Of a stretch of 15,384 nucleotides of DNA, positions 3,409-15,354 are shown piece by piece. The DNA is from Candidatus Rokuibacteriota bacterium (GTDB lineage Bacteria > Methylomirabilota > Methylomirabilia > Rokubacteriales > JACPHL01): the NCBI GenBank assembly GCA_016188625.1, contig JACPHL010000280.1, positions 1 to 15,384 on the forward strand. Direction: 5' to 3'. The notes beneath the pieces were generated by a model that was not told the origin of the DNA, made no database searches, and saw nothing but the letters and a program-made list of their open reading frames with translations. Within the stretch, counting starts at the first letter, position 1, and each line of letters opens with the position of its first letter. The translations under genes were made by a program, and so were the position numbers.

Positions 3409-3952
3409 CCTCCCGCGACCGTGGTCTGACTTCCTCGCGGACCTGGACAGGCTGCTCCCCGAGCCGGTGCAACTTCACTGCCTTGGAGGATTTGTTCTGA
3501 TAGCTTGCTATAAGATCCCTCGACCGACCGCAGATATCGATTGCGTCGCGGTTGTGCCCCAGCGTCAATTGGAAACTTTACTGCGCCTTGCCGGACCAGA
3601 GTCACCGTTGGCTAAAAAGCTCAAGATTTACTTCCAATATTCCGCCGCGACTCCTCTTCCCGACCATTATGATGCACGTCTAATCGAACTGTTCCCCGGG
3701 AGATTCAAGAATCTGCGGTTGTTCGCTTTGGACCCATACGATTTGATTCTATCGAAGCTACACCGAAACAGCGAAAAGGATCGGCACGACGTGGGATATC
3801 TGGCAAAGACCCTTGCTTTAGATCCCGTAGTGCTGCGGGAACGCTACCAGCAGGAGTTGCGCCCCTACGTGCTCGGGCGATCCGAATGGCATGACCAAAC
3901 GCTTGAGATGTGGATCGAGGCCTACTTCTCTGGTTCCAAGCCTCCGAACTGA
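3398..3952 (+). CDS. DUF6036-like nucleotidyltransferase, putative toxin
   Basis: A 184-residue protein of the minimal nucleotidyltransferase type. HCLGGFVL (Gly30-Gly31) is the glycine pair after the first helix, and PTADIDCV carries the metal-binding Asp46-x-Asp48. DPYDLILSKL and KDRHDV (112-132) match the C-terminal helical signature of DUF6036/AbiEii-like proteins. Such enzymes transfer NMPs to tRNA or protein targets, and several act as toxins. The ATG at 3398 overlaps the HTH gene by 11 nt in another frame, so translation is probably coupled. Its last 31 bp overlap the 3' end of the convergent alcohol dehydrogenase gene. Catalytic residues look intact. The family is fairly sure; toxicity and target are inference. 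A housekeeping nucleotidyltransferase is less likely given the partner and the composition. Confidence 0.78.
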   Translation: MQPDLPRPWSDFLADLDRLLPEPVQLHCLGGFVLIACYKIPRPTADIDCVAVVPQRQLETLLRLAGPESPLAKKLKIYFQYSAATPLPDHYDARLIELFPGRFKNLRLFALDPYDLILSKLHRNSEKDRHDVGYLAKTLALDPVVLRERYQQELRPYVLGRSEWHDQTLEMWIEAYFSGSKPPN

Positions 3953-4986
3953 ATTTTAGCGAGATCCATTTCTGATCGAGGCGCTAGGGGGGCGATCGCG
4001 AGGACGCCGGCGCCGCGGAGGCCGCCCTCCTTCAGGCGGCGGAGGGCGACGTTGGCCTCGGTGAGCGGGAAGGCCTCTACCTCGGTCCGGATCGGGATCC
4101 GGGGGGCGAGGCCGAGCAGCTCCTCGCCGTCCCGCCGGGTGGCGGCCGTCACGCTTCGGACTGTCCGCTCCCCGTAGAGGAGGTCATAGTCGAACTCCGG
4201 GACCCGGTCGAGGTAGATCGCCGCGATCGCCACCGTCCCGCCCCGCCGCACCGCCCTGAGCGCGAAGGGGAGGAGCCGGCCCGCGGGGGCGAAGAGCACG
4301 GCGCGGTCGAGCGCCCCCGCCGGGGCCTCCTCGCCCCCTCCGACCCAGGCCGCCCCCAGCGCGGCGGCCAGCCGCCGGTGCTCGGCGCCCCGGGTGAAGA
4401 CGGAGACCTCGCACCCCCAGTAGCGGGCCACCTGGATGGCGATGTGCGCGGAGGCCCCGAAGCCGAAGAGTCCCAGGCGCTCGCCCGGCCGCACCTCGGC
4501 GACCCTGAGGGCGCGGTAGCCGATGATCCCGGCGCAGAGGAGCGGCGCGGCGTCGAGGTCGGGGGAGCCGTCCGGGATCGGATGGGCGAAGGCCTCGGGG
4601 ACGACCGCAGCCTCGGCGTAGCCGCCGTCCACGTGGTAGCCGGTGAAGCGGGCGTTCTCACAGAGGTTCTCCGCGCCGCGCCGGCAGGCCGGGCAGGTCC
4701 CGCAGGTCTGGTGGAGCCACGGCACGCCGACCCGGTCCCCCTCCCGGAGCCGCCGGACCCCCGGGCCGAGCGCCTCCACCACCCCCACGAGCTGGTGGCC
4801 CGGGACGATGGGGCGCTTCGGGAGCGGCAGCTCCCCCTCGACGATGTGGAGGTCGGTGTGGCAGAGGCCGCAGGCGCGGACCCGGAGCTGCACCTCGCCT
4901 GGCCCGGGGCGCGGGACGGGGAGATCGGCCAGCTCAAGGGGCGCCTCGCTGATCGGCCTCGGCTCCCGGAGGATCATCGCCCGCAT
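3922..4986 (-). CDS. Zinc-binding alcohol dehydrogenase family protein (TIGR02822-like)
   Basis: A 354-residue medium-chain dehydrogenase/reductase. The N-terminal GroES-like domain shows catalytic zinc ligands ACGLCHTD (Cys42) and GHQ (His64), with Cys152 in LLCAGIIGYRAL as the likely third. It also shows the four structural-zinc cysteines (95, 98, 101, 109). The Rossmann loop is GLFGFGASAHIA (about 172-183). LLCAGIIGYRAL and the ADH order match the family I know as TIGR02822; the alcohol/aldehyde substrate is unknown. ATG 4986 has GGGGAGG upstream. Usual members end near residue 330, just after GAGVLAI. Here about 20 extra residues (APRSEMDLAKIQFGGLEPEK) are read from the AT-richer islet and overlap the convergent nucleotidyltransferase gene by 31 bp, so the original stop was probably replaced when the islet arrived. 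Confidence 0.9.
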   Translation of the reverse strand: MRAMILREPRPISEAPLELADLPVPRPGPGEVQLRVRACGLCHTDLHIVEGELPLPKRPIVPGHQLVGVVEALGPGVRRLREGDRVGVPWLHQTCGTCPACRRGAENLCENARFTGYHVDGGYAEAAVVPEAFAHPIPDGSPDLDAAPLLCAGIIGYRALRVAEVRPGERLGLFGFGASAHIAIQVARYWGCEVSVFTRGAEHRRLAAALGAAWVGGGEEAPAGALDRAVLFAPAGRLLPFALRAVRRGGTVAIAAIYLDRVPEFDYDLLYGERTVRSVTAATRRDGEELLGLAPRIPIRTEVEAFPLTEANVALRRLKEGGLRGAGVLAIAPLAPRSEMDLAKIQFGGLEPEK

Positions 4987-11103: not shown

Positions 11104-11532
11104 TTATTTAGGGGCGGGAGGGGCTTCCACCAGCTCGAGGACGTTCCCGTCCGGATCCCGGGTGAAGCCTCGGCGCGCCCCGTCGGGCGCGGGGGCCGCG
11201 GGCCAGAAGGGGTGGCCCTCGCGCTCGAGCCGCTCGACGAGGGGTTCGAACCCCCCGACCCTGAAGGCCAGGTGGCGGACCCGGCCTGCGAAGCGCTCGG
11301 CGGCGTCGCCGACGGAGCGGTCCGGGGGCGGGACGATCAGGTGGAGCTGGAAGGCCCCCAGGCCGTACCAGGCCCCGGGGAAGCCCAGGTCGGGCCGGGG
11401 GATCTCGGGGAGCCCGAGGAGGCGGCCGTAGAACTCCCGGGCCCGCGGGAGGTCGCGGACCAGGATGCCCGCGTGGAGGAATCCGTGCACCGCGGCCGGC
11501 GCCGGCTCGGCCGGCCGCCCTGCGACCGTCAC
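11104..11532 (-). CDS. VOC-superfamily (glyoxalase/bleomycin-resistance/dioxygenase) protein
   Basis: A 142-residue single VOC module pair. The two beta-alpha-beta-beta-beta repeats start at GFLHAGILVRDLPRAREFYG and RVRHLAFRVGGFEPLVERLE. Possible metal ligands at the usual places are His20, His64 (FQLHLIV), His87 and Glu133 (GNVLELVE). DPDGNVLELVE is the typical last strand. Such proteins bind a divalent metal and act on small substrates or antibiotics; the reaction here is unknown. GTG 11532 overlaps the stop of the response-regulator gene as GTGA, so the two are co-translated. This is an odd pairing, since nothing links VOC enzymes to HD-GYP signalling. The stop TAA lies in a short AT-rich stretch before the stem-loops. 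Confidence 0.85.
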   Translation of the reverse strand: MTVAGRPAEPAPAAVHGFLHAGILVRDLPRAREFYGRLLGLPEIPRPDLGFPGAWYGLGAFQLHLIVPPPDRSVGDAAERFAGRVRHLAFRVGGFEPLVERLEREGHPFWPAAPAPDGARRGFTRDPDGNVLELVEAPPAPK

Positions 11533-12596
11533 TCCAGGCTCTTCCGGCGGATCTCCTCGAGCCGCTCGAGGGGGAGGGAGAGGAAGACCTCGACGAGCCT
11601 CGGATCGAAGTGGGTGCCGGCCGAGCGCTTGATCTCCTCCAGGGCCACCTGGGGGCTGATCGCCTTCGAGTACGGCCGGTCCACGGTCATGGCGTCGAAG
11701 GCGTCCACGATGGCGAAGATCCTGGCCCCGAGCGGGATCTCCTCGCCCTTGAGCCCCATGGGGTACCCGGTCCCGTCCCAGCGCTCGTGGTGGTGGAGGA
11801 CCACGGGGATGGCCCCCTTCAGGAACTCGATGCGGGAGAGGAGCTGGCCGCCCAGCTCGGCGTGGGTCCGCATCACCTTCCACTCCTCGGGGGAGAGGGG
11901 GCCCGGCTTGAGCAGGATCGAGTCGGGGATCCCGATCTTGCCGATGTCGTGGAGGAGCACGCCGCGCTCGACGTCGGTCAGGAGGGGCTCCTCGATGCCC
12001 GCCGCCTCGGCCAGCATCCGGGCGTACCCCACCACCCGCTGGGAGTGCGCCTGGGTGCCGACGTCGCGGGTGTCCAGGGCCGAGCCGAGGGCCTCCAGGG
12101 TCTGACGGTAGGCCGCCGCGGTGGAATCGAGGGCCCGGGATAGCTGCCAGGTCTGCTCCTCGACGCGCTGCTCGAGCGTGGCCTGGTGCTCCCGGTTCTC
12201 GATGGTGAGCCGCCGCCGCTCCAGGGCGCGCTCGGCCGCGATCCGCAGCTCGTCGAAGTTGACCGGCTTCAGGATGTAGTCCGCGGCCCCGAGCTTGAGC
12301 GATTCGATGGCGGTCTTCACGTCGCCGAAGCCGGTCAGGACGACGACGGCGACGTCGGGGTCGAGCGCCTTCGCCCCGCGCAGGAGCTCCACCCCGTCCA
12401 TCACCGGCATCTTGAGGTCCGTCACCACCAGGGGAGGGCGACGGGCGCGGAAGACCTCGAGCCCCTCCTGCCCGTGCTCGGCCGCGAAGCTCCTGTACCC
12501 GATCCCGCTGAAGAGCTCGCTCAGCACCTGGCGGATCGGGGGGTCATCCTCGACGATCAGCACCTCGACGGGGCGCTCCGCCGGACCCTCTTCCAT
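11529..12596 (-). CDS. Response regulator with REC and HD-GYP domains (putative c-di-GMP phosphodiesterase)
   Basis: A 355-residue protein. The receiver domain (about 10-125) has the acidic pair Asp17-Asp18, phospho-acceptor Asp60 (VVTDLKMP), Thr88 and Lys110 (YILKPV). A coiled-coil linker (about 118-165, EREHQATLEQRVEEQ-like) leads to the HD-GYP domain with His184, His215-Asp216 (LLHDIGK), HHHERWDGTGYP (GYP 276-278) and DAFDAMTVDRPYS. All key residues appear intact, so phosphorylation should switch hydrolysis of c-di-GMP or a related dinucleotide. No partner histidine kinase is in the window. ATG 12596 is preferred because GGGAG sits five bases upstream; GTG 12602 overlaps that site. It is driven by a strong promoter at 12653-12682 and coupled to the VOC gene. 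Confidence 0.93.
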   Translation of the reverse strand: MEEGPAERPVEVLIVEDDPPIRQVLSELFSGIGYRSFAAEHGQEGLEVFRARRPPLVVTDLKMPVMDGVELLRGAKALDPDVAVVVLTGFGDVKTAIESLKLGAADYILKPVNFDELRIAAERALERRRLTIENREHQATLEQRVEEQTWQLSRALDSTAAAYRQTLEALGSALDTRDVGTQAHSQRVVGYARMLAEAAGIEEPLLTDVERGVLLHDIGKIGIPDSILLKPGPLSPEEWKVMRTHAELGGQLLSRIEFLKGAIPVVLHHHERWDGTGYPMGLKGEEIPLGARIFAIVDAFDAMTVDRPYSKAISPQVALEEIKRSAGTHFDPRLVEVFLSLPLERLEEIRRKSLE

Positions 12597-12640
12597 GGTC
12601 ACTCCCTGCCGCTCCCTACGCTCTCCAAGATTGGCCTGAA

Positions 12641-12769: not shown

Positions 12770-13015
12770 ATGACCACCGAAACGATCAAGCCCGACCGAT
12801 CTATCGACTGCATCGGCCTGTTCTGCCCGATGCCGATCGTGAAGACGCGCGAGGCGATAGCGACCATGACGACGGGGGAGGTGCTGGAGATGACCTCCGA
12901 CGACCCCGCCTCCGAGGCCGACATGAAGTCCTGGACCCGGCGGACCGGCCATGAGCTCCTCTCGGTCAGCAAGAACGGGAAGGTCTGGCACTTCCTCGTC
13001 CGGAAAGCCCACTAG
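12770..13015 (+). CDS. tusA: TusA-family sulfur carrier protein
   Basis: An 81-residue protein with the whole two-layer TusA/SirA fold. The motif CIGLFCPMPIVKTREAI carries Cys19 in CPMP, the cysteine that receives persulfide sulfur, plus a second cysteine (Cys14) five residues before. VLEMTSDDPASEADMKSWTRRTGHELL and the last strand NGKVWHFLVRK complete the fold. TusA proteins pass sulfur from a cysteine desulfurase or rhodanese to tRNA thiolation, molybdenum cofactor or sulfur-oxidation enzymes. Here it is the first gene of a probable operon, and the next frame is a NifS-like protein whose only usual start codon (12951) lies inside this gene. Either the two overlap by 65 nt or the second gene uses an unusual start. 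Family assignment is firm; the pathway served is not visible. Confidence 0.93.
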   Translation: MTTETIKPDRSIDCIGLFCPMPIVKTREAIATMTTGEVLEMTSDDPASEADMKSWTRRTGHELLSVSKNGKVWHFLVRKAH

Positions 13016-14198
13016 CCTCGCCCCGTCCATCGGGCAGCGCATCTACCTGGACTACGGCGGCTACGCGCCGGTGGACCCCCGGGTGCTCGCGGTGATGGCC
13101 ACCTACCTCGAGGGGTGGGTCGGCAACCCTTCGGCGCTCCACAGCCTGGGCGAGGAGGCGCGGGAGTCCCTCGAGGGGACCCGGGCCAAGGTCGCCAGGC
13201 TCATCGGGGGGCGCGCCGAGGGCGTCATCTTCACCTCGGGGGCGACGGAGGCCAACAACCTGGCGATCAAGGGGGTGGCCCTCCGCGCCGCGGAGCGGGG
13301 GCGCCATCTGGTGACCAGCGCCATCGAACACATCTCGGTCCTCACCCCCTGTCGCGACCTCACCAAGGCCGGCTTCGGCGTCAGCCATCTCCCGGTGGAC
13401 CGGGAGGGGCGGGTGAACCCGGAACAGCTCGTCCGGACCCTCCGCCCGGACACCGTCCTGGTCTCGCTCGGTTGCGCCAACGCCGAGGCGGGGACCGTCC
13501 AGCCGATCCGCGAGCTCGCCCGCGTCCTCCGCGGGCGCGGAGTGCTGCTCCACGTGGACGGCGTGGGGGCCGTCGGGCGGGTCCCCCTCCACCTGGAGGA
13601 CGACGGCATCGATCTCCTCACCCTCTCGGCCAACGACCTCTACGGCCCGCCGGGGGTGGGGGCGCTCTACGCGGCGCCCGGGGTCAAGCTCCTCCCCCAG
13701 CTCCTCGGCGGCGGGCAGGAGCACGGGCTCCGCTCCGGGACCGAGAACCTGGCCGGGATCGCCGGGTTCGGCCTGGCCGCCGAGCTGATGCGCCGGGAGG
13801 GGTCGGCCGAGGTCCGCCGCCTCGGCGCCCTCCGGGAGGCCCTGATCGAGGGGGTGCTCGCGCGGTGCGAGGGGACGGCCCTGACCGGCCCCCGCACCGA
13901 GCGCCTCCCCCACCATGCCAGCTTCACGGTCCAGGCGGTCAAGGGGGAGAGCCTCGTCATGGCCCTCGACCTGGCGGGGATCGCCGCCTCCACCGGCTCG
14001 GCCTGCGCCTCCCTGACCCAGGAGCCGTCCCACGTCCTCCGGGCCCTGGGCCTGGATCCCCGGGCCGTCGAGGGCTCGCTCTGCTTCACCCTCGGGCGCT
14101 GGTCCACCCGGGAGGACGTCGAGGGGCTCCTCCGGGAGCTCCCCCAGGCCGTCGAGCGGCTCAGGGCGATCTCCCCGCTCGCCAGGGCCCGCGGGTGA
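12951..14198 (+). CDS. NifS/IscS-like class V aminotransferase-fold protein lacking the PLP lysine
   Basis: A 415-residue protein, numbered from ATG 12951, with clear cysteine-desulfurase homology. Seen are IYLDYGGYAPVDPRV, FTSGATEANNLAIKGVA, SAIEHISVL (His127), HVDGVGAVGRVPL (Asp203), GLRSGTENLAGIAGF and the persulfide loop STGSACASLTQEPS (Cys352). Where IscS has S-x-H-K-x-x-GPKG, this protein reads SANDLYGPPG: Asn228-Asp229 replace His-Lys, so the Schiff-base lysine is missing. The IscS Gln183 position is Gly206. It may be a catalytically dead or repurposed relative that still holds sulfur on Cys352. The homologous part begins about residue 28, and no ATG, GTG or TTG lies between 12951 and there; the true start is uncertain. 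It follows tusA and overlaps the HAD gene by 4 nt. Confidence 0.82.
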   Translation: MSSSRSARTGRSGTSSSGKPTSLAPSIGQRIYLDYGGYAPVDPRVLAVMATYLEGWVGNPSALHSLGEEARESLEGTRAKVARLIGGRAEGVIFTSGATEANNLAIKGVALRAAERGRHLVTSAIEHISVLTPCRDLTKAGFGVSHLPVDREGRVNPEQLVRTLRPDTVLVSLGCANAEAGTVQPIRELARVLRGRGVLLHVDGVGAVGRVPLHLEDDGIDLLTLSANDLYGPPGVGALYAAPGVKLLPQLLGGGQEHGLRSGTENLAGIAGFGLAAELMRREGSAEVRRLGALREALIEGVLARCEGTALTGPRTERLPHHASFTVQAVKGESLVMALDLAGIAASTGSACASLTQEPSHVLRALGLDPRAVEGSLCFTLGRWSTREDVEGLLRELPQAVERLRAISPLARARG

Positions 14199-14890
14199 AG
14201 CTCGTCCTCTTCGATGTGGACGGGACCCTCCTCTCGGCGCGGGGGGCGGGGCGTCGCGCCATCGCGGTCGCCCTCGAGGAGGTCTACGGGACCCGGGGCG
14301 GCGTCGAGGCCTACGACTTCCACGGCAAGACCGATCCCCAGATCCTCTACGACCTCCTGACCGGGGCCGGCCTCCCCGAGCCCGCCATCCGCGCGCGGGA
14401 GGCGGAGTTCTTCGAGCGCTACGTCGCGCACCTCGGCCGCGAGGTCGGCGCCGGGGCCCAGGTGGAGCTCTACCCCGGGGTCGATGCGCTGGTCAGAGGG
14501 CTGGCGCGAAGCCCCGGGCACCTCCTCGGGCTCCTGACCGGGAACATCGAGGCCGGGGCCCGCATCAAGCTCGCCCCGACCGGGCTCGCCGCCTGCTTCC
14601 GCGTCGGGGCCTATGGCTCCGACGCGGCCGACCGCACCCGGCTCCCGGCCGTGGCCGCGGAGCGGGCCCGCCGCCTGGTCGGCCGGGCCTTCCAGGGGCC
14701 CGACGTGGTGGTCATCGGCGACACGCCGCTCGACATCGCCTGCGGCCGGGCGTTCGGGGCCCGCGTAGTGGCGGTGGCCACCGGCCGGCACGGGGTGGAG
14801 GAGCTGGCGACCCACGCCCCGGACTTCCTCTTCGCCGACTTCGGGGAGCCCGGGAGGGTGCTCCGGGCGCTGCTCGACGGGGAGGTCTGA
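14195..14890 (+). CDS. HAD-superfamily hydrolase (phosphoglycolate-phosphatase-like)
   Basis: A 231-residue protein. Motif I is FDVDGTLL with nucleophile Asp7 and acid Asp9; a helical cap follows (about 15-85, GAGRRAIAVALEEVYG, DFHGKTDPQIL). Motif II is LLTGN, and motif IV is VVIGDTPLDIACGRAFGA. The cap layout is that of Gph/beta-phosphoglucomutase-type HADs that remove phosphate from small metabolites; the substrate is unknown. GTG 14195 overlaps the previous stop as GTGA, and its own TGA shares one base with the next ATG, so translation along the operon is tightly coupled. A link to sulfur transfer is not obvious from its family. Confidence 0.88.
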   Translation: MKLVLFDVDGTLLSARGAGRRAIAVALEEVYGTRGGVEAYDFHGKTDPQILYDLLTGAGLPEPAIRAREAEFFERYVAHLGREVGAGAQVELYPGVDALVRGLARSPGHLLGLLTGNIEAGARIKLAPTGLAACFRVGAYGSDAADRTRLPAVAAERARRLVGRAFQGPDVVVIGDTPLDIACGRAFGARVVAVATGRHGVEELATHAPDFLFADFGEPGRVLRALLDGEV

Positions 14891-15354
14891 TGCTCGGGCT
14901 CGGGGTCGTCTGGCTCCATCTCCTCGCGGCGGCGGTCTTCCTGGGCGGGCTCCTCTACGAGGGGCACGTCCTCGCCCCCCTTCTGGCGCGGGGGGAGCTG
15001 GCGCCGGCGACCTTCCGGGAGGCCCATCGGCGCGGGCGACGGGCGACCTGGACGGCGCTCGCCCTCCTCTTCGTGACCGGCCTCTGGAACCTCGGCCAGC
15101 TCGGGGCCTCGCTCCCCGCCCTCTTCCAGCGGATCTCCGGGCCGCTCCTGGCCGCGAAGCTCTTCTTCGCCCTCCTCGTCCTCGCCCTCGCGGCCCACCG
15201 GGACTTCAAGCTCGTGCCGGCGGTGCTGGCGGCCCGCGAGGCCGGCGAGGAGCCCGGGGTCGCGGGCACGCTCCTCCGCGGGCTCGACCGGCTCCTCGTC
15301 CTCCTAGTGGTGGTTATCCTCTTCCTGGGGGTCGCCGTCTCCCGCCGAATTTGA
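14890..15354 (+). CDS. Small four-helix integral membrane protein (CopD-like)
   Basis: A 154-residue protein with four hydrophobic stretches (about 4-26, 51-70, 84-105 and 130-150). WLHLLAAAVFLGGLLYEGHVLAPLL (helix 1) carries His10 and His26. This H-in-first-helix pattern resembles the CopD/putative copper-export domain and related heme- or metal-binding four-helix proteins, and a further His follows helix 3 (LAAHRDF). The assignment is by pattern only. ATG 14890 shares its A with the upstream stop, so it is the last member of the tusA operon. It might move or sense a metal or electrons at the membrane; this is inference. A stem-loop follows 2 bases after the stop. Confidence 0.6.
   Translation: MLGLGVVWLHLLAAAVFLGGLLYEGHVLAPLLARGELAPATFREAHRRGRRATWTALALLFVTGLWNLGQLGASLPALFQRISGPLLAAKLFFALLVLALAAHRDFKLVPAVLAAREAGEEPGVAGTLLRGLDRLLVLLVVVILFLGVAVSRRI

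Follow-up and report, generated by a model that had tools for sequence, protein, structure and literature searches.

Lysine-less homologues of the cysteine desulfurase IscS are already known from Archaeoglobus fulgidus and Methanosarcina acetivorans. The A. fulgidus protein is reported to be devoid of desulfurase activity, aspartate having taken the place of the lysine (PMC7585200), and one of its cysteines is reported to coordinate the [2Fe-2S] cluster on IscU (PMC7585200; PMC5176006). IscS1 of M. acetivorans (MA0808), also without the catalytic lysine, is accompanied by genuine paralogues; its gene adjoins iscU1, and their cluster includes four genes without known function (PMC7585200). Ever since the A. 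fulgidus structures, the puzzle posed by such proteins has been where their sulfur originates if not from cysteine.

Escherichia coli IscS is an active PLP-dependent desulfurase with TusA as a sulfur partner, and its gene does not lie beside tusA (iscRSUA-hscBA-fdx-iscX); the structures of the IscS-TusA complex are 3LVJ and 3LVK. The enzyme is a dimer with a TusA site spanning both subunits, its loop Cys328 lies ~4 Å from TusA Cys19 in the complex, and TusA and IscU cannot occupy it simultaneously (PMC2854127). The single mutants K206A, H104Q and Q183E have no desulfurase activity and K206A retains some PLP (PMC9978102), while in L333A the IscU-dependent s2C product falls to 20% (PMC2854127). 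The TusA/DsrE relays of the Tus and Dsr pathways use TusA and a DsrE-family protein as persulfide carriers, but these carriers work with an active desulfurase or with dissimilatory sulfur metabolism rather than with a lysine-less IscS. One DsrE protein was persulfurated by sulfide in vitro (PMC3397948). A minimal two-gene IscS/IscU-type unit of archaea and bacteria, the MIS system (MisS/MisU), provides a further comparison, although MisS is described there as a cysteine desulfurase (PMC12442378, PMC10653786).

The window, by which we mean the whole 15,384-nt stretch of Rokubacteriales DNA that was analysed, carries an IscS/NifS homologue immediately behind tusA (Table 1). The product of this gene, iscS-ND (ORF 12951-14198, +), is a class-V aminotransferase-fold protein whose conserved domain starts near residue 31 (~13041). 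It scored under every curated cut-off of the NCBIfam NifS and IscS models (NifS, 408.6 bits against 530.75; IscS, 335.8 against 643.2), and it carries the loop cysteine of the GSAC type (STGSACAS, Cys352). The only in-frame start within reach in the window is the ATG at 12951, 65 nt inside tusA. In a start-codon survey, relatives mostly used an ATG ~40 nt inside tusA and otherwise a GTG just past it. A TusA-IscS fusion produced by frameshifting was considered given the 65-nt overlap of the two frames, but was rejected since the ordinary starts of the relatives make ordinary overlap with translational coupling sufficient; the overlap in the window fits such coupling. An HAD hydrolase gene follows iscS-ND in most loci of the order and a CopD-like gene lies downstream in many relatives; we know of no link between these two proteins and sulfur chemistry. 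Elsewhere in the window, a response regulator with receiver and HD (HD-GYP-like) domains is encoded divergently from tusA (11529-12602, -), and a zinc-binding alcohol dehydrogenase-type protein (PF08240, PF00107) lies at 3922-4986 (-).

Table 1. Features of the tusA-iscS-ND gene run, in window coordinates.
Feature	Position	Strand	Description
tusA	12770..13015	+	81-aa TusA-family sulfur carrier; CPxP active-site cysteine (DCIGLFCPMP); PF01206, E 1.1e-24
iscS-ND, lysine-less IscS/NifS homologue	12951..14198	+	415 aa from ATG 12951; PF00266, E 2e-70
Gly206 codon	13566..13568	+	at E. coli IscS Gln183 position
SANDLYGPPG motif	13626..13655	+	compare S-x-H-K-x-Y-GPKG of IscS
AAC GAC, Asn228-Asp229	13632-13637	+	at PLP-pocket His-Lys positions
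Pro234 codon	13650-13652	+	at second Lys of GPKG (E. coli K211)
Cys352 codon, loop cysteine	14004..14006	+	equivalent to E. coli IscS Cys328
Cys378 codon	14082..14084	+	at conserved pocket arginine, E. coli IscS Arg354
HAD-family hydrolase	14195..14890	+	next gene of probable operon; PF12710/PF00702
CopD-like membrane protein	14890..15354	+	final gene of run; PF05425, E 2e-9

At ~50% identity to solved relatives, the fold of the protein is not in doubt. A. fulgidus IscS2 was the best solved match (4EB5, E 8e-114), with the sequence SSNDIYGPKG; entry 4R5F reads SSNKIYGPKG, with lysine at the aspartate position. The window protein shares with A. fulgidus IscS2 (4EB5, 4EB7, 4HVK) a full-length IscS fold, the Asn-Asp pair, a changed Gln183 position, the loop cysteine and the same side of the tree. 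However, GPKG is intact in the archaeal protein and iscU adjoins the gene in its Archaeoglobus relatives, whereas the window protein has GPPG, Gly206, Cys378 in place of Arg354, and no linked iscU. To E. coli IscS, identity is ~40%.

The initial annotation had reported Asn-Asp at the PLP His-Lys pair, and both the AAC GAC codons and the alignment with E. coli IscS bear this out; the SANDLYGPPG sequence itself was read correctly, but it spans 13626-13655 rather than 13621-13650, a displacement of ~5 nt. The same alignment agrees with its placement of Gly206 at the Gln183 position and with the retention of Cys352, His127 and Asp203, the equivalents of C328, H104 and D180, alongside which T76, S203 and T243 are kept. 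Besides K206 (Asp229), H205 (Asn228) and Q183 (Gly206), three further positions that it had not listed are replaced, namely N155 (Ala), K211 (Pro234) and R354 (Cys378), the last being the arginine that positions the substrate in E. coli IscS. Its expectation that normal desulfurase chemistry fails is very likely right, with the equivalents of K206, Q183 and R354 all replaced and E. coli single mutants inactive. Because the lysine-less proteins of A. fulgidus and M. acetivorans and the inactive E. coli mutants point the same way, we consider it very unlikely that the window protein is a classical PLP cysteine desulfurase.

These replacements are fixed, or nearly so, in the window's order. Orthologues gathered by overall similarity, without use of the motif, were present in 55 of 60 genomes (the window's own counted) at 56-68% identity and gave 45 distinct sequences, the window's included. 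All 45 had the Asn-Asp pair and proline at the second lysine of GPKG. The Gln183 position held Gly in 40, Asn in four and His in one; it was Ala in 109 of 118 Asn-Asp proteins outside the order, among the matches listed, and Gln in 48 of 48 His-Lys proteins, a class named for its own His-Lys pair. The loop cysteine occurred in all 44 order sequences that reach it and in 111/111 other Asn-Asp sequences among the matches listed. Cysteine occupied the Arg354 position in 43 of the 44 order sequences reaching there, compared with Leu, Gln, Val or Glu in most Asn-Asp proteins outside the order and Arg in 45 of the aligned His-Lys proteins. The L333 position of the loop was Leu in 111/111 other Asn-Asp proteins (again among the matches listed), yet Gly predominated in the order, and the window protein has Gln. 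The equivalents of T76, H104, D180, S203 and T243, half of the PLP pocket, were nearly invariant. Between close pairs of order sequences dN/dS was ~0.09-0.34, and iscS-ND is under purifying selection. The strongest matches in the class outside the order (46-48% identity) were Lys-type proteins that do not have the Asn-Asp trait.

A search with the DNA pattern N-D-x-Y-G-P-x-G-[VI]-G returned at least 118 stretches. Among the matches listed, archaeal Asn-Asp proteins came from Bathyarchaeota, Asgard groups, Archaeoglobi, Methanosarcinales/ANME and Thermoplasmatota, and bacterial ones were scattered over Nitrospinota, Deltaproteobacteria, Actinomycetota, WOR-3, Eisenbacteria, Aminicenantes and Bacillota. 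In a tree of 95 rows, from which E. coli positions 155, 183, 205, 206 and 211 had been removed and for which no root was inferred, all sampled Asn-Asp rows, archaeal and bacterial, lay to one side of a single branch (SH-aLRT 99). Because rows outside the order had been chosen by motif, the tree shows that these rows group with one another but does not show that the whole branch carries the motif. The rows of the order formed one group (support 100), placed with lower support beside a Bacillota row and an Eisenbacteria-type group. On this tree and the neighbour survey below, the lysine-less relatives of IscS turn out to form a single ancient and widely distributed branch, nearly always beside tusA, and the tusA-linked Asn-Asp clade predicted from the window alone does exist. 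Not foreseen in that prediction were the earlier record of lysine-less IscS in A. fulgidus and M. acetivorans, the extension of the Asn-Asp/TusA linkage through archaea and the presence of iscU in most relatives outside the order.

Linkage was scored by equal criteria in Asn-Asp, Lys-type and His-Leu/Met loci. A same-strand tusA lay directly upstream in 45 of 45 loci of the order, and upstream in 78/92 other Asn-Asp loci among the matches listed, as against 1/41 Lys-type and 0/11 His-Leu/Met loci. In the single Lys-type exception (L214, 1474.., +), the genome (G108) also carries an Asn-Asp locus, L062. Among the matches listed, iscU followed directly in 82 of the 99 Asn-Asp loci outside the order, and a DsrE-family gene (PF02635, ~120 aa; Cys82 invariant in seven aligned sequences) lay upstream in 47 of 92. 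The operon order was often tusA-dsrE-iscS-iscU, with dsrE between tusA and iscS, in archaea and bacteria alike (e.g. L097, L053, L041, L062 and L113). Within the order, linked iscU was found downstream in none of 43 loci and linked dsrE in no locus; the operon DsrE profile had no match at E 1e-8 in the window's genome, and 12 of 30 relatives had some DsrE-like match away from the iscS-ND locus. Fisher tests on these counts take no account of shared ancestry, and we place no weight on them; a stronger point than their p-values is that tusA stays where iscU and dsrE are absent. No description of the tusA-dsrE-iscS-iscU operon was found in the openly available literature searched, and that literature likewise gave no account of an operon family centred on tusA or of an iscU-free group carrying a pocket cysteine; both may be new.

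Genomes without the gene point in the same direction as the neighbour counts. Five genomes of the order had no iscS-ND match. Four of them (G004, G078, G081 and G092) also had no orthologous tusA, with distant TusA hits at most, and since two of these four are at least 90% complete, contig gaps cannot account for all of the joint absences. In the fifth (G002), tusA is followed by the start of an iscS-ND gene at the contig end. In the order's genomes, then, tusA and iscS-ND were kept together or were missing together. The linked TusA matched the pattern with the active-site cysteine in 45/45 order loci, and the equivalent of E. coli TusA C19 was present in all the TusA sequences aligned (46/46 from the order, 85/85 from elsewhere), every one of them picked by a pattern that includes this cysteine. 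We also considered the TusA interface as a proof of binding and set it aside: of the E. coli TusA-contact positions, W45 is replaced in the order, E49 is often Ala, D52 is acidic and R55 is invariant, but the acidity of D52 and R55 are common in Lys-type proteins too, and contacts thus partly kept and partly general neither prove nor exclude binding.

A search for active-type iscS or sufS genes elsewhere in the genome, suggested in the initial annotation, recovered three Lys-containing homologues: a SufS-type protein (C314, SGHKMLGP), an IscS (C79, SAHKIYGPKG) with iscU 3 nt downstream, and a NifS-like protein (C41, SSHKIYGPKG). The cell therefore need not rely on iscS-ND for cysteine desulfuration. 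Three matches to NifU_N-type scaffolds lie beside the Lys-type enzymes, and the genome has a second, distant TusA-domain hit.

Taken together, these patterns lead us to give roughly an even chance to the reading that iscS-ND encodes a lysine-less, IscS-fold sulfur-relay partner of TusA and not a cysteine desulfurase. The initial annotation had proposed that the protein may relay persulfide to TusA or serve as a scaffold for an active desulfurase. The near-constant tusA neighbour suggests that sulfur is handed on rather than cut from cysteine. By analogy with the E. coli IscS-TusA complex, Cys352 would exchange a persulfide with the TusA cysteine, and no sulfur would be cleaved from L-cysteine on IscS-ND itself; the source of the sulfur would be one of the cell's Lys-containing desulfurases, or else sulfide or polysulfide with which TusA is charged, and inorganic sulfide may enter through TusA or DsrE. 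In the archaeal and many of the bacterial relatives the chain probably runs from TusA/DsrE through IscS-ND to IscU, where the sulfur would end as a cluster. In the window's order, where IscU is no longer linked, only TusA and IscS-ND seem to be left of this chain, and a second conserved cysteine, Cys378, lies in what would be the former substrate pocket. Because there is no linked iscU, the Leu333 position has changed (mostly to Gly) and Arg354 has become cysteine, the comparison suggests a narrower, TusA-only role for the order's protein, with a second pocket cysteine.

Several lines of evidence favour such a relay, namely the constancy of the Asn-Asp pair and of tusA (each 45/45), the single tree branch, the joint absences, the conservation of both cysteines and purifying selection. 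Against it, a pure relay would not need the half of the PLP pocket that is kept, and the linkage to tusA may reflect one ancient gene order, though the linkage has outlived the loss of iscU and dsrE. A role like that of A. fulgidus IscS2, in which iscS-ND would carry out no desulfuration and its loop cysteine would complete a [2Fe-2S] cluster on an IscU encoded at another isc locus, is unlikely. In its favour, the closest solved relative shares the Asn-Asp motif and has the reported cysteine ligand (PMC7585200, PMC5176006), iscU directly follows most Asn-Asp genes listed outside the order, and NifU_N scaffolds are encoded elsewhere in the window's genome. The constant tusA and missing iscU of the order's own loci argue otherwise, as do the scaffolds' position beside Lys-type enzymes and the loss of the loop leucine, a residue whose mutation in E. 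coli impairs the IscU-dependent product (PMC2854127). We judge it rather improbable that the protein is an inactive docking or regulatory partner, bound to TusA or paired with a Lys-type IscS in a mixed dimer, which tunes sulfur flow while carrying no sulfur. The dimeric state of IscS and a TusA site that joins both subunits (PMC2854127) would suit this role, as would the lost pocket residues and the three Lys-type homologues in the genome; but docking alone needs no loop cysteine, which every order sequence reaching the position has, and at only ~45-48% identity to the Lys-type copies mixed dimers become less likely.

The half-pocket could also belong to an enzyme that uses PLP or PMP for a different reaction, works without a Schiff-base lysine and has Asp229, His127 or Cys378 as base. 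Lysine-less PLP/PMP enzymes exist, as in GDP-4-keto-6-deoxymannose 3-dehydratase, and the retained pocket residues are nearly invariant; the E. coli K206A mutant, too, still holds some PLP (PMC9978102). Yet Arg354, Gln183, Asn155 and His205, which hold the substrate and the cofactor oxygen, are replaced in the order, and none of the genes recognised beside iscS-ND pointed to metabolism of an amino-acid substrate, which makes this alternative quite improbable. A decaying pseudogene or an assembly error has a negligible probability. One copy (L038; genome G006, contig C295, 15280-16710) is split over two frames, by a frameshift that is either real or an assembly error, but the frame is intact in nearly all genomes carrying iscS-ND, and the in-frame stops that were counted sit, judging from match starts and the start-codon survey, in the N-terminal stretch overlapping tusA. 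For the Asn-Asp pair itself, its presence in every order sequence together with the dN/dS values rules out sequencing error or pseudogene formation.

A more far-reaching version of the relay reading is tentative, and we hold it to be possible rather than probable: lysine-less Asn-Asp IscS proteins would be non-desulfurase persulfide hubs of one cysteine-independent line, TusA(-DsrE)-IscS-ND(-IscU), shared by archaea and several bacterial lineages, and in the order's stripped TusA and IscS-ND form the PLP pocket would have become a second-cysteine site (Asp229, His127, Cys378) holding sulfur or metal. For the question of sulfur origin, the near-constant tusA and the frequent DsrE-family neighbours name a directly testable donor. 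The methanogen Methanococcus maripaludis is reported to use sulfide, not cysteine, for Fe-S clusters (work cited in PMC12442378), and a cysteine-free input line would therefore fit at least part of the Asn-Asp distribution. There is also a practical side, since PF00266 calls Asn-Asp proteins aminotransferase-fold desulfurase kin, and an automatic 'cysteine desulfurase' annotation following from such calls would lead metabolic reconstructions astray for many uncultured archaea and bacteria.

A different change at the lysine position was observed in 11 loci of a family (f2) of the same order (L165, frame from 2333, +; L166, L167, L169, L170, L171, L172, L174, L177, L178 and L179). Their IscS reads TAHL or TAHM (K206 to Leu or Met), with H104 changed to Gln and S203 to Thr, and keeps Q183, R354 and C328. 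No description of such an IscS was found in the searched literature. The gene lies directly upstream of iscU in all 10 loci with enough sequence, and the corresponding IscS of the window's genome and of G003 reads the normal SAHK. Judged from the alignment, this is a separate lysine loss within the same order; in the tree, the TAHL/TAHM rows group with the Lys-type IscS of the window's genome.
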